From Gammaproteobacteria bacterium (GTDB lineage Bacteria > Pseudomonadota > Gammaproteobacteria > HK1): a stretch of DNA of 64,000 nt. Of the stretch, positions 5,777 through 61,552 are shown piece after piece. Under the pieces are notes generated by a model. It was given only the letters and a program-made list of their open reading frames with translations, searched no databases and had not been told where the DNA came from. A program made the position numbers and the translations under genes. Position 1 is the stretch's first letter. Every line of letters starts with the position of its first letter. The DNA lies in assembly GCA_021773635.1 (NCBI GenBank), contig JAJFJV010000023.1:1-64000 (forward strand). The letters run 5' to 3'.

Positions 5777-6580
5777 TTACTGAATTGCCTCGCGCAACTT
5801 GAGACAGAGACGGTCAATCACGGTGATCATGCAAACAATGATAATTACCACCGTAGTCGCCTGCTCAAACTCATACATACTCATGTTCCAGAGCAAGGTG
5901 ACACCCAAACCACCGGCACCCACGAACCCGAGCACCGTTGCCTGACGCGTGTTGTGATCCCAGTAATACAGCGTGTAACTGATATACAGTGGAAACACCT
6001 CTGGCATGGCGCCATAAAAGAACACCTTCCAGCGACTGGCGCCAGTAGCAGTCATCGCTTCCAACATACCAATATCCGAGGCCTCTACCGCTTCGGAAAG
6101 CAGCTTGGAAAGCATACCCACCGAGAAGATAGTCAGTGCAATCACGCCAGGCATCGGACCAAGACCTACGGCCACCACGAAGAACAGTGCCCAGATGATC
6201 TCAGATACTCCACGGAAGATATTCAGCACCATACGAACGGGATGATATATATACCAAGGCGACATGTTATGAGAAGCCAGGAAACCCACGGGAATCGAAA
6301 TAAGCGACCCCAGGAAGGTTGCCAGTATCCCGATGTAAAGGGTCTCCCAGAAAGGCACCCAAAGGTTTTTATACCCTTCAATGCTCGGCGGGAACATCAG
6401 TACCAGGGTTTCCCACACCTTCGGGAGGCCCTTGGCCAATTCGACTGGGCTGAATTCCGCCCCGACGATGGACCACCAGTAGATCCCGAGTAAAACCACC
6501 GCAATCGCCAGGCGGAACGGTGTGTAACGCGGGGGAAAGTGCGGCATGGGCACCGCATTTGCTGTCGTTTCATTTGTCAT
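5777..6580 (-). CDS. phnE: Phosphonate-type ABC transporter permease 2 (PhnE)
   Basis: 267 residues with about six membrane segments. The cytoplasmic coupling loop reads EAVEASDIGMLEAMTATGAS and is followed by FYGAMPEVFPLYISYTLYYW and the VLGFVGAGGLG ending, all standard for PhnE-type permeases of the PhnCDE family. The upstream permease gene ends two bases before this one starts, so the two probably form a heterodimeric channel. Known relatives import phosphonates, phosphite or phosphate esters; the sequence does not choose between them. Confidence 0.9.
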   Translation of the reverse strand: MTNETTANAVPMPHFPPRYTPFRLAIAVVLLGIYWWSIVGAEFSPVELAKGLPKVWETLVLMFPPSIEGYKNLWVPFWETLYIGILATFLGSLISIPVGFLASHNMSPWYIYHPVRMVLNIFRGVSEIIWALFFVVAVGLGPMPGVIALTIFSVGMLSKLLSEAVEASDIGMLEAMTATGASRWKVFFYGAMPEVFPLYISYTLYYWDHNTRQATVLGFVGAGGLGVTLLWNMSMYEFEQATTVVIIIVCMITVIDRLCLKLREAIQ

Positions 6581-6582
6581 GG

Positions 6583-7407
6583 CTAGATAATCCTGCTACG
6601 AGCGGCCGCACTGGTCCGGTCAATGATGGTCAGGATGATGACAATCACGCCCAGAACAGTAATGGCCTGCTGGTATTCAAATTCAGCGATGGCCGAGGTC
6701 AGCAGGAAGCCAATACCACCGGCTCCCACAAGTCCAAGAACCGTGGCCGAACGGTTGTTATAGTCCCAATACAGCAACACGACCGACATGATATTGGGCA
6801 AGATGGTAGGAATAATTCCAAAGAAGAATATCTGCAAACGATTGGCCCCGGTGGACTTCATCGCCTCAAGAATCCCTTCATCCACGGCCTCAATGGTCTC
6901 GTAGAAGAACTTACCCATACTGCCGGTGCTATGCAGGGTCAGTGCCAGCGTACCCGGGAAAGTACCCAAGCCCACCGCAGAGACCAGAATCATGGCCCAC
7001 AGCAGCTCGGGAACGGTACGCAGGGTATTTAACGCGACACGAACCAGATTACCCAACCAGTGAATCCGTCGCGTGCTGGTAGCCGCATAGAAGGCCAGAA
7101 ACATAGCGATGGGAATTGGCAGAGTTGTCCCAACCAGAGCCATTTGCAGGGTTTCCACCAGTGGCCCGGAGATTTCCGCTAGCGGCTCGAAGTTCGGTGG
7201 GAACATGCGGCCAAGCAGCTTCCATATATGGGGAGAACCACGCTCCAGTTCCACCAGGTTGAAGTTGGTGTAATAGGCAGCGTAGAAAACGACAGCCAGA
7301 ACAATCGCAACCAGGATGGCATAACCCGTGCGCACCTTTCGGCGCACATAGATGGCGAGTTCCAGGCCCTCAAGATCGATCTTACTTACGTCAAGTATTT
7401 TAGCCAT
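6583..7407 (-). CDS. phnE: Phosphonate-type ABC transporter permease 1 (PhnE)
   Basis: 274 residues. A long N-terminal cytoplasmic lead and one membrane span precede a canonical PhnE core with the coupling segment EAVDEGILEAMKSTGANRLQ and the ending VLGLVGAGGIGFLL. It overlaps the stop of the upstream ATPase gene by one base, so translation is coupled. It resembles the following permease in its second half, which indicates an old duplication. It works with PhnC and PhnD in the inner membrane. Confidence 0.9.
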   Translation of the reverse strand: MAKILDVSKIDLEGLELAIYVRRKVRTGYAILVAIVLAVVFYAAYYTNFNLVELERGSPHIWKLLGRMFPPNFEPLAEISGPLVETLQMALVGTTLPIPIAMFLAFYAATSTRRIHWLGNLVRVALNTLRTVPELLWAMILVSAVGLGTFPGTLALTLHSTGSMGKFFYETIEAVDEGILEAMKSTGANRLQIFFFGIIPTILPNIMSVVLLYWDYNNRSATVLGLVGAGGIGFLLTSAIAEFEYQQAITVLGVIVIILTIIDRTSAAARSRII

Positions 7408-49128: not shown

Positions 49129-50271
49129 GTGGAGACAGTACCAAAAGCCCCTGTAGTTATCGCTGAAAAAGCGCTCCACACATTGGTATGCGAGCTGCAG
49201 TCAGCGGGCTACCGCGTCATCGGGCCGACCCTGCGGGATCAGGCGATCATCTATGATGAGATCGACTCCGTGGCCGACCTGCCACAGGGCTGGACTGATG
49301 AGCAACAGCCGGGCAGCTATCGCGTGGCAAAACGTCCGGACATGGCCTTGTTTGGCTACACCGTAGGTCCCCATTCCTGGAAGAAGTTCCTGCACCCTCC
49401 CCGCCTGCGTCTGTGGCAGGCGAGTCGCACTGGCAATGAAGTGAGCTTTAGCCACGACGAAACGCCGTCCCAAAAGTATGCTTTCCTGGGGGTGCGTAGT
49501 TGTGAACTCCACGCCATAGCCATCCAGGACCAGGTCTTTCTACAGGCTGGGCACGAGGATGTCGGCTATCGCCAACGGCGCGACGACAGCTTCATCATTG
49601 CCCTTAACTGCAGCGAAGCCGGGGGCACCTGTTTCTGTGCCTCCATGAAGACCGGGCCGCAGGCCACCAATAGCTTTGATCTCGCCCTCACCGAGTTGCT
49701 GAGCGAGGATCGGCACGAATTTCTGGTGGAAATTGGCAGCCAGGCTGGTGCCGATCTGATGCACGGTATAGCAAGCCGCGAGGCCAGTGCCGGGGATCTG
49801 GAGACGGCCGAAAAGTTACTGGCACAAACCGCCGCAAACATGGGACGCCACCTCGATACCCAGGGCCTCAAGGAGCGTCTGCAGGAAAATCCGGAGCATC
49901 GACGCTGGGACGAAGTCGCTGCCCGCTGCCTCAGCTGCAGCAATTGCACCCTGGTCTGCCCCACCTGTTTTTGTACCAGCGTAGAGGACACCGCCGATCT
50001 CGCAGGTGACACGGCGGAGCGCTGGCGGCGCTGGGATTCCTGCTTCAATGGAGAATTTTCCTATATCCATGGCGGCAGTGTCCGCAGCTCAACCAAATCC
50101 CGTTACCGGCAGTGGCTCACCCACAAGCTCGCCCACTGGGTCGATCAATTCGGCAGCAGTGGCTGTGTGGGTTGCGGGCGCTGTATCAGCTGGTGCCCCA
50201 CCGGCATCGATATCACCGAGGAAGCGGCAGCTATCGGTAGTGCCGCATCACCTCCGGAGGACGCATCATGA
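49129..50271 (+). CDS. hydB: Group 3b-type hydrogenase beta subunit (iron-sulfur)
   Basis: 380 residues. The C-terminal third has two ferredoxin-like cysteine groups, [16 protein letters not shown] and [12 protein letters not shown], and an N-terminal region with cysteines near [15 protein letters not shown] and [10 protein letters not shown], as in sulfhydrogenase HydB and related 4Fe-4S electron-transfer subunits. It starts at a GTG with AAGGGG nine bases before. It carries electrons between the gamma and delta subunits of the cytoplasmic complex. Confidence 0.87.
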
Positions 50272-50723
50272 AAGACCTCACCGAACTTCTGCGCCAGCAC
50301 CCTTTCACCGCGGGATTGGATGACGAAATTATCAATCTAATCGCTGGCTGTGCCAGCAATGTAGTATTTCAGGCAAACGACTATATCTTTCGTGAGGGTG
50401 GCAACGCGGAACACTTTCACCTCATTCGCCACGGCACTGTGGCTCTGGAAATGAAGGCTCCCGGTCGTGAGGCCCTCAGTTTCCTCACCATCAAGGACGG
50501 CGATATGCTGGGCAGCAACTGGCTGGTTCCCCCCTATCGCTGGTCCTTCGATGCCCGCGCGGTGGAACTGACCCGGGCGGTGGCCTTTGAGGCAACCTGT
50601 CTGCGCACCAAGTGCGACGCAGACCATCATGTGGGTTACGAAATGATGAAACGTTTCGTGCCACCCCTGCTGGAACGCCTGCAAATAGCGCGCTTTCAGG
50701 GCGCTGACATCTATAGCGCCTGA
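50268..50723 (+). CDS. Cyclic-nucleotide-binding-domain protein in hydrogenase operon
   Basis: 151 residues forming one CRP-type sensor domain ([40 protein letters not shown]). There is no helix-turn-helix, so it does not look like a DNA-binding regulator. It overlaps the beta gene by four bases and is followed seven bases later by the gamma gene. Inference: a small sensor or regulatory subunit that reports a nucleotide or redox state to the enzyme. The usual Arg of the cAMP pocket is at [12 protein letters not shown], but I cannot tell the ligand. Confidence 0.75.
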
Positions 50724-50730
50724 GGCCGGA

Positions 50731-51567
50731 ATGAACACACCGCTCGACCCGATGATGCCCCGCTTCCTGCCGCTGCAGCGTCGCATTCGTGAGACCGCGG
50801 ATGTGCTGAGCCTGGTAGCAGAGCCCCTGGAAGGCGAAGAAATGCCGACCTTTCTGCCCGGCCAGTTCAACATGCTCTACGCCTTTGGTGTGGGCGAGGT
50901 GCCCATCAGCATCAGCGGTGATCCCCAGGAACGGGGACATCTTGTTCACACCATCCGCGACGTCGGTGCCGTCAGCCACGCCCTGCTCCAGCTTAAACGC
51001 AATGAGCCACTGGGTATCCGCGGCCCCTTCGGCAAGCCCTGGCCTCTGGATCAGGCCCGTGGCGCCGACATCCTGCTGATTGCCGGCGGCATTGGCCTCG
51101 CCCCCCTGCGGCCGGTTATCTACCACCTGCTGGCGCAGCGGGAATCCTATGGTCGCATCGCCCTGCTTTACGGAGCCCGCAACCCGGCCGATCTCCTCTA
51201 TCACAAGGAACTGGAGCGCTGGCGGCGAGTCCCGGACTTCCAGGTGCGAGTCACCGTGGACCACGCCGGCCGCGAGTGGCTGGGTGATGTGGGCGTGGTC
51301 ACTCGCCTGCTTCCCAAAATCCGCCTTGACCCGGCGGACACCGTGGTGATGCTCTGCGGACCGGAAATCATGATCCGTTTCAGCACCCTGGCGCTGCTGG
51401 ATATGGGGATGAGTACCAAGCAGCTTTATGTCTCCATGGAGCGCAACATGAAGTGCGCCATCGGCTCCTGTGGGCACTGCCAGTTCGGACCGCATTTCAT
51501 CTGCAAGGACGGCCCGGTGTTCCGCTATGACCGCGTGGAAGCCCTGCTGAAACAGGACGAGATCTGA
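50731..51567 (+). CDS. hydG: Hydrogenase gamma subunit (FAD/NAD(P) binding)
   Basis: 278 residues of the ferredoxin-NADP reductase-like family. A flavin domain ([20 protein letters not shown]) is followed by an NAD(P) domain ([20 protein letters not shown]) and a C-terminal 2Fe-2S cysteine set, [17 protein letters not shown]. It is the site where the hydrogenase exchanges electrons with NAD(P). Confidence 0.9.
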
Positions 51568-51568
51568 G

Positions 51569-52351
51569 ATGGCTACGCACTCCAAGCGACCGAAGCTAGC
51601 GGTGTGGAAGTTCGCCTCCTGCGACGGCTGTCAGCTCAGCCTGCTCGACTGTGAGGACGAATTGCTGGCAGTCAGCGAGGCAGTGGAGATTGCCTACTTT
51701 GCCGAGGCCTCACGGGCGATGCAGAAAGGGCCCTATGATATATCCTTGGTGGAGGGCTCCATCACCACGCCGCACGATGCCGAGCGCATCCACCAGATCC
51801 GGCGCAGCTCGCGGGTACTGATCACCATCGGCGCCTGCGCCACCGCCGGCGGCATACAGGCACTGCGCAACTTCAAGAACGTAAAAGAATTCACCCGCAC
51901 GGTCTATGCCCACCCGGAATATATCGACACCCTCAAAACCTCCACACCTATCTCCCATCACGTAAAGGTGGATTTCGAGCTGCGTGGCTGCCCAATAAAC
52001 AAGGCACAGCTACTGGAGGTCATCGAGGCTCTGCTCCATGGCCGCAAGCCCAATACACCGGCCCACAGCGTGTGCATGGAGTGCAAGTTGGCCGGTACCG
52101 TGTGCGTGATGGTCGCCCACGGCACCCCGTGCCTGGGCCCGGTTACCCATGCCGGCTGCGATGCCCTGTGCCCACGCTACAACCGTGGCTGCTTTGGCTG
52201 CTACGGCCCGAAGGAAAGCCCCAACACCCACGCCCTCGCCGCCGAGTGGCAACGGCTCGGCGCACAACTGAGAACCATCCGCCACGCCTTCCGCAACTTC
52301 AATGCCTGGGCCGAGGAATTCCGCAAAGAGAGCGAAAAGCATGAGCCGTAA
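51569..52351 (+). CDS. hydD: Hydrogenase delta (small) subunit
   Basis: 260 residues of the 20-kDa NADH dehydrogenase/hydrogenase small-subunit family. The proximal cluster ligands are in [23 protein letters not shown] and RGCPINKAQ; further cysteines ([14 protein letters not shown]) are near the C-terminus. It lacks a Tat signal, consistent with a soluble cytoplasmic hydrogenase. The stop overlaps the large-subunit start. Confidence 0.92.
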
Positions 52352-53630
52352 GACCATCAAGGTGGATTACCTCGCCCGGGTTGAGGGTGAGGGCGCCCTG
52401 CACGTGCATTTCAAGGGCGATCAGGTCAAAGACGTGCGGCTCAAGATCTTTGAGCCTCCGCGCTTCTTCGAGGCCTTTCTGCGCGGCCGGAATTTCGTCG
52501 AAGTGCCCGATATCGTCGCCCGCATCTGCGGTATCTGCCCGGTGGCCTACCAGATGAGTGCGGTGCATGCCCTGGAGGGGCTGCTGGGCGTGCAGGTTAA
52601 AGGCCCGCTTCGTGCGCTGCGGCGACTGCTCTATTGCGGCGAATGGATTGAAAGCCACGTGCTGCATATCTACATGCTGCATGCGCCGGATTTTCTTGGT
52701 TACGAAAGTGCCATCGCGGTAGCCAAAGACTATCCGGAAATCGTCGAGCGCGGCCTGCGGCTCAAGAAGGCGGGTAACGCCATCGTCCGCACCGTGGGCG
52801 GACGCGAGATTCATCCCATCAACATCCGTCCGGGTGGCTTTTACCGACAACCAACCAAGGCAGAACTAAAGGCCCTGGCGGAAGATCTGAAATGGGCACG
52901 CGACGCGGCCATCGAAACGGTCCGCTGGACCGCGGGCCTGGAGTTCCCGGACTTCGAGCGTGATTACGAATTCGTCGCCCTGCGCCATCCGGACGAGTAC
53001 CCGATGAATGAGGGCCGCATCGTCTCCAGCGCCGGGCTCGATATCGCCGTAGACGAGTACGAGAACTATTTCGAGGAGAGTCACGTCCCCCATTCCACCG
53101 CCCTGCACTCCACCCTCAAGGGGCGTGGCAGCTATCTGGTAGGCCCGCTGGCGCGCTTCAATCTCAACTATCACCAATTGGCCCCCATCGCCCGGGAACT
53201 GGCGACCGAGGTGGGCCTCGGCACACCCTGCAACAACCCATTCAAGAGCATCATCGTGCGCGCCATCGAGGTTCTGCACGCCTGTGACGAGGCCCTGCGC
53301 CTTGTCGAGAACTACGAAGTCCCGGAACGCGCCGCGATAGAACTTGAACCCGGGGCCGGCACCGGCCACGGCTGCACCGAGGCCCCGCGCGGCATCCTCT
53401 ACCACCGTTACCAGCTGGATGAGAAAGGTCTGGTGGTCGAAGCCCGCATCGTGCCGCCTACTTCACAGAATCAGGGCATGATTGAAGACGATCTGCGCGA
53501 CCTGGTGGCCCGCAACATGGCGCTCCCGGACGATGAACTGCAATGGAAATGCGAGCAGTCCATCCGCAATTACGACCCCTGTATCTCCTGCGCCACCCAC
53601 TTTCTCAAGCTCGATGTCGAACGCAGTTAG
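52341..53630 (+). CDS. hydA: [NiFe]-hydrogenase alpha (large) subunit, group 3b type
   Basis: About 429 residues. The N-terminal nickel motif RICGICP and the C-terminal DPCISCATH supply the four Cys ligands of the Ni-Fe centre. After the His lie nine residues (FLKLDVERS), the tail cut off by the maturation protease encoded next. RVEGEGAL and [10 protein letters not shown] are further family marks. The ATG at 52341 overlaps the delta stop. The set HydBGDA points to a bidirectional NAD(P)-linked enzyme of the group 3b (sulfhydrogenase-like) class. Confidence 0.94.
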
Positions 53631-54162
53631 GGCATCCAATCCGGACGGGAAAACCAGGGGAATTGCCATCATTGCCCTCGGCAACCGCTTTCGCGGCGAC
53701 GACGGTGTTGCCATCGAAATTGCCGAAGGGCTCGGTCCACTTCCACCCGGGTGCACGCTTAGCAAAAATCCGGGCGATGCCCTCGCACTCCTGGACACAT
53801 GGGAGGATGCTGCTCTCGCCATCGTATTGGATGCGGCCATGTCCGGCGCCCCCCCGGGTACCATCCACCACTTCGGAAGTGGTCGGGAAGCCATCCCCAA
53901 GAACCTGGGCCGCTGCTCCAGCCACGGCTTTGGCCTTGCCGAGGCCATCGCATTGGCCGAGGCCCTGGGGCGATTGCCATCGAGGCTTAGTATCTATGCC
54001 GTGGAAGCCGGACAATTCGAGCCCGGAGCCGGCCTTTCCGCGGAAATTTCCGCCGCGGCCGGCAAGGTGGTCCGGCAGGTCCGGGAAGAGCTCAGGCAGT
54101 ATGGCGCTGCTTGCAATAAAGCCGGATCAGCACGTGAGCTGCCCGCGAACGATCTGCGATGA
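53614..54162 (+). CDS. Hydrogenase maturation protease
   Basis: About 182 residues of the HycI/HyaD/HoxW family. [18 protein letters not shown] contains the Asp that binds nickel, and [12 protein letters not shown] and [11 protein letters not shown] follow. It trims the C-terminal tail of the large subunit after Ni insertion. The ATG at 53614 lies inside the end of the large-subunit gene; residues upstream in the open frame are shadow sequence. Confidence 0.86.
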
Positions 54163-54923
54163 ACCGATTGAGCGGTGCCTGGCGCAGGCTTAGCGACACA
54201 GCTTATGCCGCCTATGCGCAGTTCACCTTCTGGCTGCTGGCACCTGCCGTCTGGTTGCTGGTGGCCTTGCTGCCACCGGTCCGCTGGCGCTGGGCAGTGA
54301 TGCGCGGCGGTGCACGGCTGCTGTTTCGGCTAAGCTGCGCGCCGCTGCGGGTCGTGGGCCTGGAGCAGTTGCCCCGCGACCGGGCCTGCATCATGGTCGC
54401 CAATCACTCCAGCTACCTGGACGGCGTGGCGCTGGTGGCGGCCCTGCCCCTGGAGTTTTCCTTTGTCGCCAAGGCGGAGCTGGAACGCCAGCTCATTCCA
54501 CGCATCTTTTTAGGGCGCATCGAGACCCGATACGTGGACCGTAACGACAAGCGGCGCCACCCGGCCGATGCCCGGGAACTGTTGCAAACGGCGTGCGCCG
54601 GGCGCTCCCTGCTGTTCTTCCCCGAGGGCACCTTAACGCGCATACCGGGTCTGCTGCCGTTTCATACGGGTGCTTTTGTGACCGCCGCCGAGGCCGGCTT
54701 GCCGGTGGTTCCCATCAGCATCCTCGGCACCCGTTCCATTCTGTGCGACCAATCCCGGTTTGCGCACCGGGCCGCAGTGCGTGTAGTGATTGGCAAGCCG
54801 CTTGCCCCCACGGGCAGTGACTGGGCCGCGGCAGTCGCGCTGCGCGACGCCGCCCGCGAGGCGATGCTCGACCACCTGGATGAACCCGACCTGGCGGGAA
54901 AGGCATCCCTGCCGGCGGTATAG
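54159..54923 (+). CDS. 1-acyl-glycerol-3-phosphate acyltransferase-like
   Basis: 254 residues of the PlsC family. ANHSSYLDG is the catalytic HX4D block and FFPEGTLTR is the second acyltransferase motif. One hydrophobic N-terminal segment (FWLLAPAVWLLVALLPP) anchors it. It overlaps the protease gene by four bases and thus closes the hydrogenase operon, although its lipid function has no evident tie to hydrogen metabolism. Confidence 0.87.
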   Translation: MNRLSGAWRRLSDTAYAAYAQFTFWLLAPAVWLLVALLPPVRWRWAVMRGGARLLFRLSCAPLRVVGLEQLPRDRACIMVANHSSYLDGVALVAALPLEFSFVAKAELERQLIPRIFLGRIETRYVDRNDKRRHPADARELLQTACAGRSLLFFPEGTLTRIPGLLPFHTGAFVTAAEAGLPVVPISILGTRSILCDQSRFAHRAAVRVVIGKPLAPTGSDWAAAVALRDAAREAMLDHLDEPDLAGKASLPAV

Positions 54924-54963
54924 ATTGGCGCGATGAACGGGATAGCCAGCCCGGAGAACCCGG

Positions 54964-55629
54964 TCAGAAATCCTGAAGCAAAAACCAGAGGGGAACCGGC
55001 GCGGTCGCCAGGGCCAGAAGCAGAAGATAGCCGTGGAACGGGATGAGTTTGCTCATTCCAACGACGAGCCCAATGCCGCCACCGCCACCAATCAATGCGT
55101 TACCGGGCAGATTCAGGACGGCCGCAATGGTCAAATAGCGGTGATGGAGAAGAAACGGCGCAATTTTCGAGGGTGCTTTTTCGTTTAGCAGTTCAAGCCG
55201 CCCAGATGGATTCAGAGGTTCAAGCTGACGTACGAGTGCGCTTGCCTTGTATAGATGGAGCCAGGTGAGCAAGCGATAGACGAGATGAGGAGAAATAGTC
55301 CGTCCAATGGTAAAACTTATCGACAGGGCAACCAGGGTGCACAGGTAAACAAGTAGCGCCCCCTCGCTTCCGAGCATCAGCATCAGGGCCAGGCCAATTT
55401 CTATACCGGGCATGAAAGGGGTAGCCATCAATACGATATAAAGCAACACGGCCCCCAGCAGGAAGGCATGCAGCATCGGTTCGTGACGGGGAAACAACTG
55501 GAACTCAAGCTGGTGTACCAGCCAGCCTCCGCCCATATTCAGCGCCACGATGATGGCCAGAAACAGCGTGATCTTCAGAACACGGAGTCGCCTATAGGAG
55601 CCCGTCTGCGCCCGACCCGAATCGGTCAA
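54964..55629 (-). CDS. Membrane protein, possibly VTT/SNARE-associated type
   Basis: 221 residues with about five hydrophobic segments. PFMPGIEIGLALMLMLG and LNLPGNALIGGGGGIGLVVG recall the paired G-rich elements of DedA/TVP38-type proteins, but the match is weak. It is convergent with the plsC-like gene. Function unknown. Confidence 0.55.
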   Translation of the reverse strand: MTDSGRAQTGSYRRLRVLKITLFLAIIVALNMGGGWLVHQLEFQLFPRHEPMLHAFLLGAVLLYIVLMATPFMPGIEIGLALMLMLGSEGALLVYLCTLVALSISFTIGRTISPHLVYRLLTWLHLYKASALVRQLEPLNPSGRLELLNEKAPSKIAPFLLHHRYLTIAAVLNLPGNALIGGGGGIGLVVGMSKLIPFHGYLLLLALATAPVPLWFLLQDF

Positions 55630-55644
55630 ACCTGTGCCTCCAGA

Positions 55645-55676
55645 TCACTGCTGTCCCGTTAACTAAAATCCGTCAT
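55645..55676 (-). repeat. Dispersed repeat R1, inverted copy
   Basis: The reverse complement of this stretch is nearly identical over about 32 bases to 63328-63359, with the core AGTTAACGGGACAGCAGTGA. The differences are an extra G after ATGACG and a missing A before the core. A further partial copy is at 55842-55857 in the opposite orientation, so the pair brackets about 200 bases. Confidence 0.7.
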
Positions 55677-55756
55677 ACCGGGCTTGACCCGGTATCCAGT
55701 TAGCGGTTGAAAAAACTGGATTCCGGCTCAGCAAAAAAACGCTGTCCGGAATGACG
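55671..55756. repeat. Interspersed palindromic repeat element
   Basis: Two units are joined: a CGTCATACCGGG...CCCGGTATCCAG palindrome and CTGGATTCCGG...CCGGAATGACG. The outer ends (CGTCAT and ATGACG) are also complementary. This resembles small dispersed elements of the NEMIS/REP kind. The same CTGGATT/AATGACG ends occur at 26854-26907. Confidence 0.65.
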
Positions 55757-55841
55757 AGGCTCTTTTTTGATGTTCATGTCTCTCAGGCAACTATGCATCC
55801 ATCTGGCCTTTTCCAACAAGGCATATGCCCGAATTCACCCA

Positions 55842-55857
55842 AAGTTAACGGGACAGC
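55842..55857 (+). repeat. Dispersed repeat R1, partial copy
   Basis: AAGTTAACGGGACAGC matches the core of the copies at 55645-55676 (inverted) and 63328-63359. The short frame upstream, 55767-55841, has no clear ribosome-binding site. Confidence 0.6.
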
Positions 55858-55913
55858 TGTACTTCCAGATAGCAAATAATGTGCAGAACAATGCCCTTCG
55901 TGGTGATGCCAGC

Positions 55914-56336
55914 TCAGTTCCTGAGGGCACCCCTGAACCAGTATTCCCTGTGAATATTCCAGTACCAGCGTTCCTTGGTCCAGACAAACGTCACCTCAGC
56001 CGTATCGCCATCCACGATTCCTTGCCAGGCAATCTTTCCGTGGGTCGGACTTTCCGTTAGTGCTTTGAAATGAATAGTTTTTCCCACAACTTCCGCCAAA
56101 TACTCTCCGCTGCCGAAATTATAGGGCTCACAGGATACCGACCTGAACCGGCCATTCTGAAAGATGATCTCCTCATCCTCGAAAGGATCCAGTTCACGGC
56201 CCTTTTCACCATTTTTGCCGACAAAGGTTTTTCCATCAAGAAGGTGGGAGACCTCTCCGGAAAGTGCCGGGTTTGCCACACAGATGCACAACACCGCAAT
56301 GAGCAGAATACATTGCCGTAACCGGTTCATAATCAT
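55914..56336 (-). CDS. Small secreted protein of unknown function
   Basis: About 140 residues. A signal peptide (ILLIAVLCICVANPALS) precedes a predicted small beta-rich domain (LDGKTFVGKNGEKGRELDPF, EEIIFQNGRFRS, VTFVWTKERWYWNIHREYWF). I do not recognise the family. It is isolated and lies between a repeat cluster and the hyp genes. The 171 bases before hypA (56337-56507) hold no gene that I can support. Confidence 0.55.
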   Translation of the reverse strand: MIMNRLRQCILLIAVLCICVANPALSGEVSHLLDGKTFVGKNGEKGRELDPFEDEEIIFQNGRFRSVSCEPYNFGSGEYLAEVVGKTIHFKALTESPTHGKIAWQGIVDGDTAEVTFVWTKERWYWNIHREYWFRGALRN

Positions 56337-56507: not shown

Positions 56508-56777
56508 ATGCACGAAGCCTCACTGATGAAAGATCTGATGGGCAAAATCGAGACCCTGGGCGAGGCGGAAAATGCCCGACGGGTGATCATGGTGCGGGTC
56601 TGGCTGGGCGCACTCAGCCACATGTCTCCCGAGCACTTTCGTGAGCATTTCGCCCATTCCTCGAGTGGAACTCTGGCCGAGGGGGCAGCCCTGGAGTTTG
56701 AGGTATCCGGCGATATCAGCGACCCCAATGCCCAGGCCCTGATTCTGCAAAGCATTGAGGTGGAAGGCAGCGATTGA
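56508..56777 (+). CDS. hypA: HypA-like protein without zinc-finger domain
   Basis: 89 residues against about 113 for typical HypA. The N-terminal MHE nickel-binding triad is intact (MHEASLMKDLM), and the end (QALILQSIEVEGSD) matches the C-terminal strand of HypA. The segment between, which normally has two CxxC pairs for Zn, is missing; the protein contains no Cys at all. It overlaps hypF. HypA normally delivers Ni together with the GTPase HypB, which is not in this cluster. Confidence 0.78.
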   Translation: MHEASLMKDLMGKIETLGEAENARRVIMVRVWLGALSHMSPEHFREHFAHSSSGTLAEGAALEFEVSGDISDPNAQALILQSIEVEGSD

Positions 56778-59125
56778 GCGCTCGCGATCCAGCCATTGCC
56801 CCCGTCTCCCCGGAAAACGGGGAAGAGCGACGGTATTTTTCGGTTGAAGGCGTGGTGCAGGGTGTCGGTTTTCGCCCCCATGTCTATCGTCTCGCCCGAA
56901 CCTGTGGTCTGAATGGCTGGGTAAGTAATTCAGCAGCAGGCGTGGAGATTGAGGTGGAGGGGCCACGGGTGGCCATCAACACCTTCCGCCATCGCCTCGA
57001 AAATGAACTGCCCCCGCTTGCCAGCCTGAGCCGGGTGCATGAGTCCACAGCACGCGAGCTCCACGGGTACTCCAGCTTTGAGATCCATGACAGCGAGTCC
57101 TCCGGTCCTGCGACGGCACGGATGCTGCCGGACATCGCCACCTGCGATGAATGTCTTGCAGAGATCCTCGACCCGGACAATCGACGGTATCGCTATCCCT
57201 TCACCAACTGCACCCATTGCGGCCCCCGCTTCAGCATCCTCAAGGCCCTGCCCTACGATCGCCATAACACCACTATGGCCAAATTCCGCATGTGCTCCAC
57301 CTGCCAGGCGGAGTATGAGGACCCAGGTGATCGGCGCTTCCACGCCCAGCCCAATGCCTGCCCCGAGTGTGGTCCACAACTAGCATTGAGCGATGCCCGT
57401 GGCGAGATCCTGGCGCACCGTGACCAAGCCCTGCTTACCGCAGCCACGGCCATCCGGGCAGGGAAAATCGTGGCCCTCAAGGGCCTGGGTGGCTTCCAGT
57501 TGCTGGTGGATGCGCGCAACGCCAAAGCCATCGCACGACTGCGACAACGGAAAAACCGCCCGCATAAGGCCTTCGCGGTCATGTTCCCGTCGCTTTCCAC
57601 GCTGCAAATGCACTGCGAGACCTCAAGCAAAGAATGTGCCTTGCTCAGTTCGCCACAGGCACCTATCGTGCTGCTGCGTCGACATGCCCGCTCATCACCA
57701 GGCACACCACTGGCTATAGAACTTGCGCCGGATAATCCCCTGCTCGGCGCCATGCTGCCCTATACCCCGCTACATCATCTGCTGCTGCGGGAACTGGGCT
57801 TTGCCGTCGTGGCCACCAGCGGCAACCTGGCCGAAGAACCCATGGTGATCGATGAGCAGGAAGCACGGCAACGGCTGGCCGGAATTGCCGATGTATTTCT
57901 CATCCATGACCGTCCCATTGCCCGTGCCGTAGATGACTCCGTGGCCCGAATCATGGCGGATGACATCACCCTGCTTAGGCGTGCGCGGGGTTATGCGCCC
58001 GGTAGCATAGAACTAGCGGTGCCGGGGCCCCCGGTACTCGCCCTCGGTGGCCATCTCAAGGCGGTGGTCGCACTCAGCCACGATGACCAGGTGGTGGTCG
58101 GGCCGCATATCGGTGATCTTGATAGCACATCGGCACGAAAGGCCTTCACTCGCGCCGCAGATGATCTGCTGGACATCCATGGCCAGCCACCCATCGCCAT
58201 TGCCTGCGATTTACACCCCGATTATTACAGCACCCAACTTGCGAAACGCTATGGCCCACGGGTCATCCCGGTGCAGCATCACCTCGCCCATATCCTTTCC
58301 TGCATGGCCGAGCACGGGCTTGACGGGCCGGTGCTGGGGATCGCCTGGGATGGTAGCGGTTACGGTGAGGACGGTAAGCTTTGGGGGGGTGAATTTATCC
58401 TCGTAGATGGCACCTCCATACAGCGGTTGGCCCATCTCCGTCCCTTCCGCCTGCCGGGTGGTGAACACGCCATCCGCGAGCCCCGGCGTAGCGCCCTGGG
58501 GCTACTGTATGAACTGTACGGCGAAGCCTGGCCGGCACAGCCTGAACTAACATCCCTTAACAGCTTCAGCGACCGCGAATGCACCCTGATGCGCACCATG
58601 CTCGCCCGGAACATCAACAGCCCGGAGACCACCAGCGTCGGGCGCTTGTTCGACGGGGTAGCCGCACTGCTGGATCTTGGACAAACCACCAGTTTCGAAG
58701 GGCAGGCGGCAATGGCACTGGAGTTTGCCCTGGGCTCCGATGCGCCGTCTGTAGCAGGCTATGCACTGCCCGTGGTAGAGCCTGAAAACCCCACCCATGA
58801 ACCCCTGATGCTGGATTGGCGCCCCATGCTGCGCGCCCTGCTCAAAGACATAGACCACGATACCCCGACGGCACTGTTGGCGGCCCGCTTTCACAATGGC
58901 CTGGTGGCGGCAATCGTTGCACTCGCCCGTCACGCCAATATCCCCCGGGTGGTATTGAGTGGCGGTTGCTTTCAGAATGCCTATCTCACAAGCCAATGCG
59001 TGGCGCAGTTGCGGGAGGCGGGTTTTACTCTCTTCAGGCAACGCCGGATCCCGCCCAACGACGGTGGCCTTGCCCTGGGCCAAGCGGCCTGGGCCACACG
59101 ATTACTCGCCGAGGAACACCGCTAA
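56774..59125 (+). CDS. hypF: Carbamoyltransferase HypF
   Basis: 783 residues. In order: an acylphosphatase domain (GVVQGVGFRPHVYRLA), a pair of zinc fingers (TCDECL, CTHCGPRFS, CSTCQAEY, CPECGP), a YrdC-like domain and a Kae1-like carbamoyltransferase domain (HHLAHILSCMAEHG, GSGYGEDGKLWGGEF, LSGGCFQN). It makes the carbamoyl group that becomes the CN ligands of the Ni-Fe site. The start is a TTG overlapping the hypA stop, with GGAAGG upstream. Confidence 0.93.
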   Translation: MSARDPAIAPVSPENGEERRYFSVEGVVQGVGFRPHVYRLARTCGLNGWVSNSAAGVEIEVEGPRVAINTFRHRLENELPPLASLSRVHESTARELHGYSSFEIHDSESSGPATARMLPDIATCDECLAEILDPDNRRYRYPFTNCTHCGPRFSILKALPYDRHNTTMAKFRMCSTCQAEYEDPGDRRFHAQPNACPECGPQLALSDARGEILAHRDQALLTAATAIRAGKIVALKGLGGFQLLVDARNAKAIARLRQRKNRPHKAFAVMFPSLSTLQMHCETSSKECALLSSPQAPIVLLRRHARSSPGTPLAIELAPDNPLLGAMLPYTPLHHLLLRELGFAVVATSGNLAEEPMVIDEQEARQRLAGIADVFLIHDRPIARAVDDSVARIMADDITLLRRARGYAPGSIELAVPGPPVLALGGHLKAVVALSHDDQVVVGPHIGDLDSTSARKAFTRAADDLLDIHGQPPIAIACDLHPDYYSTQLAKRYGPRVIPVQHHLAHILSCMAEHGLDGPVLGIAWDGSGYGEDGKLWGGEFILVDGTSIQRLAHLRPFRLPGGEHAIREPRRSALGLLYELYGEAWPAQPELTSLNSFSDRECTLMRTMLARNINSPETTSVGRLFDGVAALLDLGQTTSFEGQAAMALEFALGSDAPSVAGYALPVVEPENPTHEPLMLDWRPMLRALLKDIDHDTPTALLAARFHNGLVAAIVALARHANIPRVVLSGGCFQNAYLTSQCVAQLREAGFTLFRQRRIPPNDGGLALGQAAWATRLLAEEHR

Positions 59126-59376
59126 TGTGTCTGGCTGTACCGGGAGAACTGATTGCCGTTGACGGTGATGCGCCACTGACCCGCAGCGGCAAAGTCGCCT
59201 TTGCCGGCATCATCAAGGAGGCCAACCTCGCCTTCGTACCCGAGGCGCTGGTGGGCGACTATGTGCTCGTGCACGCGGGCATCGCCATTGCCGTCCTCGA
59301 TCCTGAAGCAGCTCAACGCTCCCTGTCAGATTTGGAAAGTCTCACCGAGGAAGACCTTAGTGAGGAGATACATTGA
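59125..59376 (+). CDS. hypC: Hydrogenase assembly chaperone HypC
   Basis: 83 residues. The N-terminal MCLAVPGE supplies the essential Cys2 that carries the Fe(CN)2CO fragment, and [13 protein letters not shown] is the OB-fold part. The ATG shares a base with the hypF stop (TAATG). Confidence 0.93.
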
Positions 59377-60500
59377 AATACGTGGACGAATACCGTGATG
59401 GCGACGCCAGCCAACAATGTGCCGAGACCATCAGACAGCTGGTCACCCGGCCCTGGCTCATCATGGAGATCTGTGGTGGTCAGACCCACGCCATCGTGCG
59501 CTACGGTATCGATCAGTTGCTGCCAGCTGAAGTGGAACTGCTCCACGGGCCCGGCTGCCCGGTCTGCGTCACGCCATCGGGCAGTATCGACAAGGCCATC
59601 GAGATCGCCGCCCGCCCCGAGGTCATCTTCACCTCTTTCGGCGACATGCTGCGCGTGCCCGGCTCCAGCACCAATCTGATGAACGCCCGCGCCCAGGGTG
59701 GCGATGTGCGTATCGTCTATTCCCCCCTGGATGCCCTGCAAATCGCGCGTGAGAATCCCGAGCGTACTGTGGTGTTCTTCGCCGTCGGTTTTGAAACCAC
59801 CGCCCCAGCCACTGCCATGGCGGTCTATCAGGCCCGGCAACTAGGAATTGAGAATTTCCTATTGTTGGTCTCCCACGTCCTGGTGCCACCGGCCATGGAG
59901 GCCATCCTGTCCTCGCCAGACACCCGGGTGCAGGGATTTCTCGCCGCTGGCCACGTCTGCACGGTCATGGGCTATGACGAATATCCGCCCATCGCAGCGA
60001 AATATCAGATACCCATCGTCGTCACCGGCTTCGAACCCCTGGATATTCTGCAAGGGTTGCTGATGTGCCTGCGACAACTGGAGGAAGGACGTGCCGAGGT
60101 GGAAAATCAATATGCTCGCTCGGTGCGTGCCCAAGGGAACCAAAGCGCCCGCAAGATGCTCCGCGAGGTGTTTGAGGTGGTGCCACGCCACTGGCGGGGT
60201 ATCGGTGAAATTCCACAAAGTGGCCTCGGCCTCGCCCCGGCCTTCGCCGACTTCGATGCCGAGGGTCGTTTTGGCCTCGCCAATCACTCCGGCGGCGACA
60301 GCACCGAATGCATCAGCGGCCTGATCCTGCAGGGCCGTGCCAAACCCGCCGCCTGTCCGGCCTTTGGCAAACGCTGTACCCCAGAACATCCCTTGGGCGC
60401 GCCGATGGTCTCCTCCGAAGGTGCCTGCGCCGCCTATTACCGCCACCGGGCCCATGCCTCTCCCGAGCCTGTCGCCAGCGAATCGGAAGCACCGGCATGA
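59373..60500 (+). CDS. hypD: Hydrogenase iron-centre assembly protein HypD
   Basis: 375 residues. [31 protein letters not shown] and the late cysteine segment with [20 protein letters not shown] belong to HypD, which holds iron and a 4Fe-4S cluster while CN and CO are added. The start is a TTG overlapping the hypC stop. Confidence 0.93.
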
Positions 60501-61552
60501 GTAGCAAAGACGATTTCACGCTCAACTGCCCGACACCGCTGGCAGCCGATGCCGAGATATCCCTGGCCCATGGCAGTGGCGGCGCACTCACCCACCGGCT
60601 CCTCGAACAGCTTTTTCTGCCGGCCTTTCACAACCCAATGCTGGATGCCCGCCACGATGGCGCCATGCTGGAGTTGGGTGATACGCGACTCGCCTTCAGC
60701 ACCGATTCCTACGTGGTCCAGCCACTGTTTTTCCCCGGCGGTAATATCGGCGACCTTGCCATCAACGGCACCGTCAGCGACCTCGCCATGTGCGGCGCGC
60801 GACCCCACTATCTCAGTGCCGGCCTGATCCTGGAAGAAGGCTTCCCCATGGAGCAGCTCGAAGGCATCGTCAGCTCGATGCAGTGCGCAGCACGGCGGGC
60901 AGACGTACAGCTGGTGACCGGCGATACCAAAGTGGTGGAAAAGGGCTGTGGCGACGGCATCTTCATCAACACCAGTGGCATCGGCGTCATCGAGGGCAAC
61001 ACCTCCGTCGCGCCAGCACGGGTAGAAAATGGTGATCTCATCATCCTCAGCGGCGATCTGGGACGCCACGGAATTGCAGTGATGGCGGCACGCGAAGGCC
61101 TGGATTTCGGAGTCACCATTGCCAGCGATACCGCGCCCTTAAGCCTGCCAGTGCTCTCCCTGCTCGCAGCGGGCATCGATCTCCATTGCCTCAGAGATCT
61201 GACCCGTGGCGGCCTCGCCACCGCCCTGGTGGAAGTCGCGGAAACCGCACAGGCTGATTTCAGTATCAAGGAACGTGCCATCCCCGTTTCCGAACCGGTA
61301 CGCGGCGCCTGCGAGATCCTCGGCCTGGATCCGCTCTACGTCGCCAACGAAGGCCGCTTCGTGGCTTGGGTTGCGGCCGCAGAAGCCGAACATGCGCTAG
61401 AAATTATGCACGGCCATCCGCTAGGCACTGGCGCCTGCATTATTGGCCGGGTAACCGAAGGAGACCATGGCGCAGTAACCATGGAAACTCACATCGGTGG
61501 CAAGCGCGCCATCGATATGCTCAGCGGCGAGCAGCTACCAAGAATCTGCTAG
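60497..61552 (+). CDS. hypE: Hydrogenase maturation protein HypE
   Basis: 351 residues. [17 protein letters not shown] opens the protein, [18 protein letters not shown] is the ATP-binding region, and the protein ends in PRIC, where the C-terminal Cys is carbamoylated by HypF and dehydrated to a thiocyanate. The ATG overlaps the hypD stop. It ends the hypAFCDE series. The 174 bases after it (61553-61726) have no gene or clear terminator. Confidence 0.93.

Follow-up and report, generated by a model that had tools for sequence, protein, structure and literature searches.

Organization of the group 3b hydrogenase operon

The window, by which we mean the whole stretch of 64,000 nucleotides analyzed here from a gammaproteobacterial contig (JAJFJV010000023.1), carries on its forward strand a [NiFe] hydrogenase operon in which the structural genes are followed by a maturation protease gene and a set of hyp genes:

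49129..50271, + strand: hydrogenase beta subunit, group 3b (Fe-S; HydB/ShyB/AsrA-like), by profile match
50268..50723, + strand: cyclic-nucleotide-binding-domain protein (PF00027), with synteny conserved within the operon
50731..51567, + strand: hydrogenase gamma subunit (FAD/NAD(P), AsrB-like), by profile match
51569..52351, + strand: hydrogenase small (delta) subunit, by profile match
52344..53630, + strand: [NiFe] large (alpha) subunit with the nickel-ligand motifs RICGIC and DPCISC and the tail FLKLDVERS; start codon (52344) inferred from aligned N-termini
53627..54162, start uncertain, + strand: HyaD/HupD-type hydrogenase maturation protease (TIGR00072, 97 bits)
56508..56777, + strand: short HypA, 89 aa, with MHE, a deleted zinc ribbon, the motif HFREHF (H43, H47), H38 and W32
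56774..59125, + strand: hypF, carbamoyltransferase (TIGR00143, 810 bits), overlapping hypA by 4 bp
59122..59376, + strand: hypC, starting MCLAVPG (PF01455, 77 bits)
59373..60500, + strand: hypD (TIGR00075, 505 bits)
60491..61552, + strand: hypE, ending ...PRIC with a C-terminal Cys (TIGR02124, 447 bits)

The hypA-F-C-D-E order with overlapping genes and without hypB, as described in the original prediction, was confirmed by the open reading frames and profile matches. The enzyme belongs to group 3b, as it comprises alpha, beta, gamma and delta subunits of the sulfhydrogenase type and the nearest solved relatives of its large subunit are Sulfhydrogenase 1 alpha and HyhL of T. kodakarensis. Since the RICGIC and DPCISC motifs, which were also seen in homologues, are intact in the large subunit, nickel insertion is still needed.

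Three genes assigned by eye occupy the gap between the protease gene and hypA (54159-56336), namely those for a PlsC-like acyltransferase, a TVP38-like membrane protein and a small protein that looks secreted; they are missing in one of the two operon copies of a same-genus genome (L033). Almost every locus with space for it, those of actinobacteria included, has the gene for the small cyclic-nucleotide-binding-domain protein within its group 3b operon, where the product may act as an extra subunit or a sensor.

Sequence, fold and spread of the short HypA

The protein encoded by the ORF at 56508-56777 (MHEASLMKDLMGKIETLGEAENARRVIMVRVWLGALSHMSPEHFREHFAHSSSGTLAEGAALEFEVSGDISDPNAQALILQSIEVEGSD) starts with MHE and has no cysteine among its 89 residues, and thus no four-cysteine zinc ribbon (CxxC..CxxC); its homologues have zero to two cysteines and lack any CxxC pair. 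Residues 1-66 match the Pfam HypA profile (PF01155) with 42.2 bits, above the gathering cut-off of 28.9, while the NCBIfam HypA equivalog TIGR00100, which has a cut-off of 88.1 bits, scores only 35.7, as the alignment breaks off at position 66 of the profile and leaves the zinc ribbon unmatched. The protein is therefore HypA at the level of fold and Pfam family, not at that of the canonical equivalog. The AF2 model, built on a 35-sequence alignment (pLDDT 90.6), consists of helices at residues 2-20 and 41-52 and strands at 26-33, 61-66 and 78-85. In VIA-align all 89 residues were placed on the HypA structure 3a43_B (Z 13.2, rmsd 2.2), and the next-best folds after the HypA structures were RidA-like, with Z scores of 7.5 and lower. 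The last strand aligns with the end of the HypA structures, which indicates that the ribbon was excised as a unit between the strands at 61-66 and 78-85. Translation, profile matches and model thus bear out the earlier description of a HypA that keeps the MHE triad and the C-terminal strand (residues 78-85) but has neither cysteines nor the Zn-binding insertion.

A scan of species genomes identified 38 loci encoding the same short HypA (52-82% identity, 86-95 aa) in Gamma-, Alpha- and Betaproteobacteria, Verrucomicrobia, Gemmatimonadetes, Chlamydiae, 'Deltaproteobacteria', Bdellovibrionales and Hydrogenedentota, so that the proposed survey of other group 3b clusters did recover the protein. 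Between the window copy and its nearest relatives dN was 0.11-0.14 and dS 0.8-1.1; together with the recurrence of the architecture at 38 loci these values exclude chance as well as a sequencing error, which the original prediction had named as a possible refutation, and a frameshift was rejected as the cause of the short HypA on the basis of the same homologues. In nearly all of these loci the short hypA has the group 3b hydrogenase and protease genes on one side and hypF, hypC, hypD and hypE on the other. The 11-gene order HydB-cNMP-HydG-HydD-HydA-protease-hypA-hypF-C-D-E is kept in most loci where the contigs allow it to be followed, a few loci have hypD/hypE upstream or lack some hyp genes, and no recurrent extra accessory gene was found in the short-HypA operons. 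Azospirillum matches were rejected as short HypA, being full-length HypA accompanied by HypB, and a partial match in genome G117 was set aside where a contig end cuts the gene. The survey of the phylum of genome G064 comprised seven genomes only.

The number of operon copies varies within the genus of the window genome: G002 has the group 3b and hyp operon twice, on separate contigs (L096, L097), and G001 has none. Genes for subunits resembling 2-oxoacid:ferredoxin oxidoreductase recur near the short-HypA operon (L041, L049, L065, L069), suggesting a fermentative context.

All 42 short sequences analyzed form a single clade (support 0.67; FastTree, 66 columns). His2 and Glu3 are invariant among them, as are W32, H43, H47, S67, D69 and A75, which are not typical of full-length HypA; none of the 27 full-length sequences has a histidine at position 43 or 47. 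H38 is present in 39/42 short as opposed to 2/27 full-length sequences; the exceptions, with G or P at this position, belong to the plasmid-borne branch of the Burkholderiaceae, whose Pandoraea/Burkholderia members retain H43 and H47. Residue 40 is E or D in 22/27 full-length proteins and S or T in every short one, and with a turn of 100 degrees per helical residue, positions 43 and 47 are no more than about 60 degrees away from it around the helix axis. The reading of the system as simplified held for the loss of the zinc site and of HypB, but it overlooked the new histidines, Trp32 and the altered residue 40, features suggesting that the protein was rewired and not just reduced.

HypB in the window genome and across genomes

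The window genome is a draft assembly of 2.55 Mb in 46 contigs, estimated to be 99.62% complete, and encodes one [NiFe] hydrogenase. Profile searches of the whole assembly detected no second HypA, leaving the short protein as the sole copy, and no HypB, the best match to the HypB model reaching 22 bits where the cut-off requires 121; nor was there a match to the CobW/HypB/UreG family of G3E GTPases (PF02492) at E<=1e-5. The other finding that would have spoken against the original prediction, a separate locus with canonical hypA and hypB, was thus not encountered, and a missed hypB or second hypA was rejected for this assembly.

The same pattern was observed beyond the window genome. HypB above the cut-off is absent in 34 of the 37 genomes with a short HypA, and the three that have it (G066, G074, G082), and no others, encode a full-length HypA in addition to the short one; in all three a large [NiFe] subunit covers the whole PF00374 profile and is group 1-like. 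Within an even sample of the window's phylum (n=397), 91 of the 93 genomes with HypA also have HypB, the two HypA-only genomes being the window's own and G324. Comparison of the genomes having the short form only with the 91 HypB genomes yielded a Fisher p of ~6e-32 with genomes treated as independent, although owing to shared ancestry the true number of events is below the genome counts. The zinc domain and HypB are systematically absent together. The HypA of G324, a genome without HypB, is canonical apart from an internal stop, apparently a case of a decaying hydrogenase system.

One of the 91 HypB genomes, that of the alphaproteobacterium G401, encodes a 79-aa ribbon-less HypA beside an intact HypB (L093, ~6483-6722; G401:C33:215482), while the HypA of its genus mate G491 is full-length. 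This protein resembles the short HypA in its in-frame deletion of the zinc ribbon and differs from it in having HypB next door, in lacking the HFxEH motif and in falling outside the short clade of the tree. Loss of the ribbon alone therefore does not require loss of HypB, and the G401 deletion was an independent event.

Proposed nickel delivery and comparison with known systems

The nickel ligands proposed for H. pylori HypA include the N-terminal amine, His2, Glu3 and Asp40 (PMC7055735). In T. kodakarensis, HypA is remodeled in complex with ATP-bound HypB, which brings His98 to the N-terminus and creates a nickel site of nanomolar affinity (PMC7055735). The short HypA has neither the His98-bearing insertion nor the zinc ribbon nor an acidic residue 40. 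Three histidines are found near position 40 and beyond it, in the loop and the helix. We consider it likely that these proteins constitute a HypB-independent, zinc-free HypA subfamily, made up of the Ni domain alone and dedicated to group 3b hydrogenases, each member supplying nickel to the large subunit encoded in its own operon. The binding and delivery of nickel, like the part played by the histidines, are inferred here.

The Fe(CN)2CO half of the cofactor would be built by HypC, HypD, HypE and HypF as usual, while nickel would be held at the N-terminal Met-His-Glu of the short HypA, which would dock on the large subunit and insert the metal before the co-encoded protease cleaves the large-subunit tail. 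The invariant His43 and His47 in the helix that starts at the old ligand position 40, along with His38 in most members, are likely replacements that may provide a pre-formed nickel or docking site, and such a standing histidine site would make HypB unnecessary. Possible, though somewhat less likely than not, is an extension of this to a self-sufficient, NTPase-free metallochaperone in which a permanent site (MHE plus His43/His47) replaces the HypB-induced one, so that in many bacterial phyla a single protein of 9-10 kDa would do the work of HypA, its ribbon and HypB.

Alternatively, another NTPase (UreG, or one of the CobW or Mrp/MinD type) could replace HypB as partner of the short HypA. UreG was proposed in an earlier paper (PMC7285500) for the same operon type, as seen in Nitrosococcus oceani AFC132, many short-HypA genomes contain matches of 60-80 bits to the HypB model, a level expected of UreG, and an ATP-specific HypB has been described in some archaea (PMC12134894). 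A PF02492 match is absent, however, not only from the window genome, for which UreG or CobW was rejected as a general substitute on this ground, but also from 10 of 20 other HypB-less short-HypA genomes, with the control positive in 11 of 14 genomes, and no conserved NTPase gene was found in the short-HypA operons. The archaeal HypB belongs to the Mrp/MinD-type ATPases; the GTPase screen used here covered PF02492. On balance we regard a substitute NTPase as unlikely.

Somewhat less probable still is a supply of nickel to the large subunit from the free pool, with the short HypA as a remnant that serves docking or regulation. Such a reading could draw on the partial rescue of hypB mutants by high nickel (PMC12134894, PMC7285500), but it is at odds with the invariance of H2 and E3 in 42/42 sequences, with the strong purifying selection on the protein and with the retention of the short hypA in every operon, even in genomes that also have canonical HypAB. 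That a hypB gene was simply missed in gaps of the 46-contig draft is very hard to credit given a completeness of 99.6% and the equal absence of HypB from 34/37 genomes, as well as from the same-genus genome with two operon copies. We favor the zinc-free, HypB-independent HypA as the agent of nickel delivery. The simplified nickel-insertion route of the original prediction is supported by the joint absence of zinc domain and HypB, with the route itself inferred from genomes, and the distribution of the short HypA suggests that a simpler, one-protein route of nickel delivery is widespread.

As a natural exception without zinc site or HypB, the system makes the roles of both parts directly testable. 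It would also define a minimal nickel-insertion set for heterologous hydrogenase production, consisting of the short HypA, HypC, D, E and F and the protease, and annotation schemes that demand hypB misjudge such hydrogenases as lacking maturation.

With regard to origin, hypA-F-C-D-E corresponds to the hypA-B-F-C-D-E order of Kitasatospora/Streptomyces clusters minus hypB, and the HypD of these actinobacterial clusters is 62-65% identical to that of the window. Actinobacterial group 3b enzymes with a large subunit 55% identical to the window's are without adjacent hyp genes. One Streptomyces plasmid carries such an enzyme together with a canonical hypAB cluster, a pairing that implies that canonical HypAB can probably serve this enzyme type; the group 3b enzyme itself may thus have no need of a short HypA.

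In a literature search that left subscription papers mostly uncovered, we found no report of a zinc-less HypA and nothing relevant on HypB-independent maturation. A 2020 paper (PMC7285500) pointed out that AFC132-type hypAFCDE group 3b clusters lack hypB and suggested UreG in its place. The clusters described there for Nitrosococcus oceani AFC132, Nitrospina gracilis and Luminiphilus syltensis have the same gene order, a group 3b enzyme and no hypB, and L. syltensis NOR5-1B is one of the 38 loci analyzed here (L050). The passages of that paper on these clusters deal with the missing HypB and leave the shortened HypA unmentioned, and the UreG they propose is absent from the window genome.

With canonical HypA (3a43 and 5aun of T. 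kodakarensis, 6g81 and 2kdx of H. pylori) the short protein has the Ni-domain fold in common (Z 11-13) and shares the N-terminal MHE, G34, the C-terminal strand and its place in the hyp operon. It differs from the canonical form in lacking the CxxC..CxxC ribbon, the His98-bearing insertion and a HypB partner, and in having S or T for E/D40 along with the newly acquired W32, H43 and H47.
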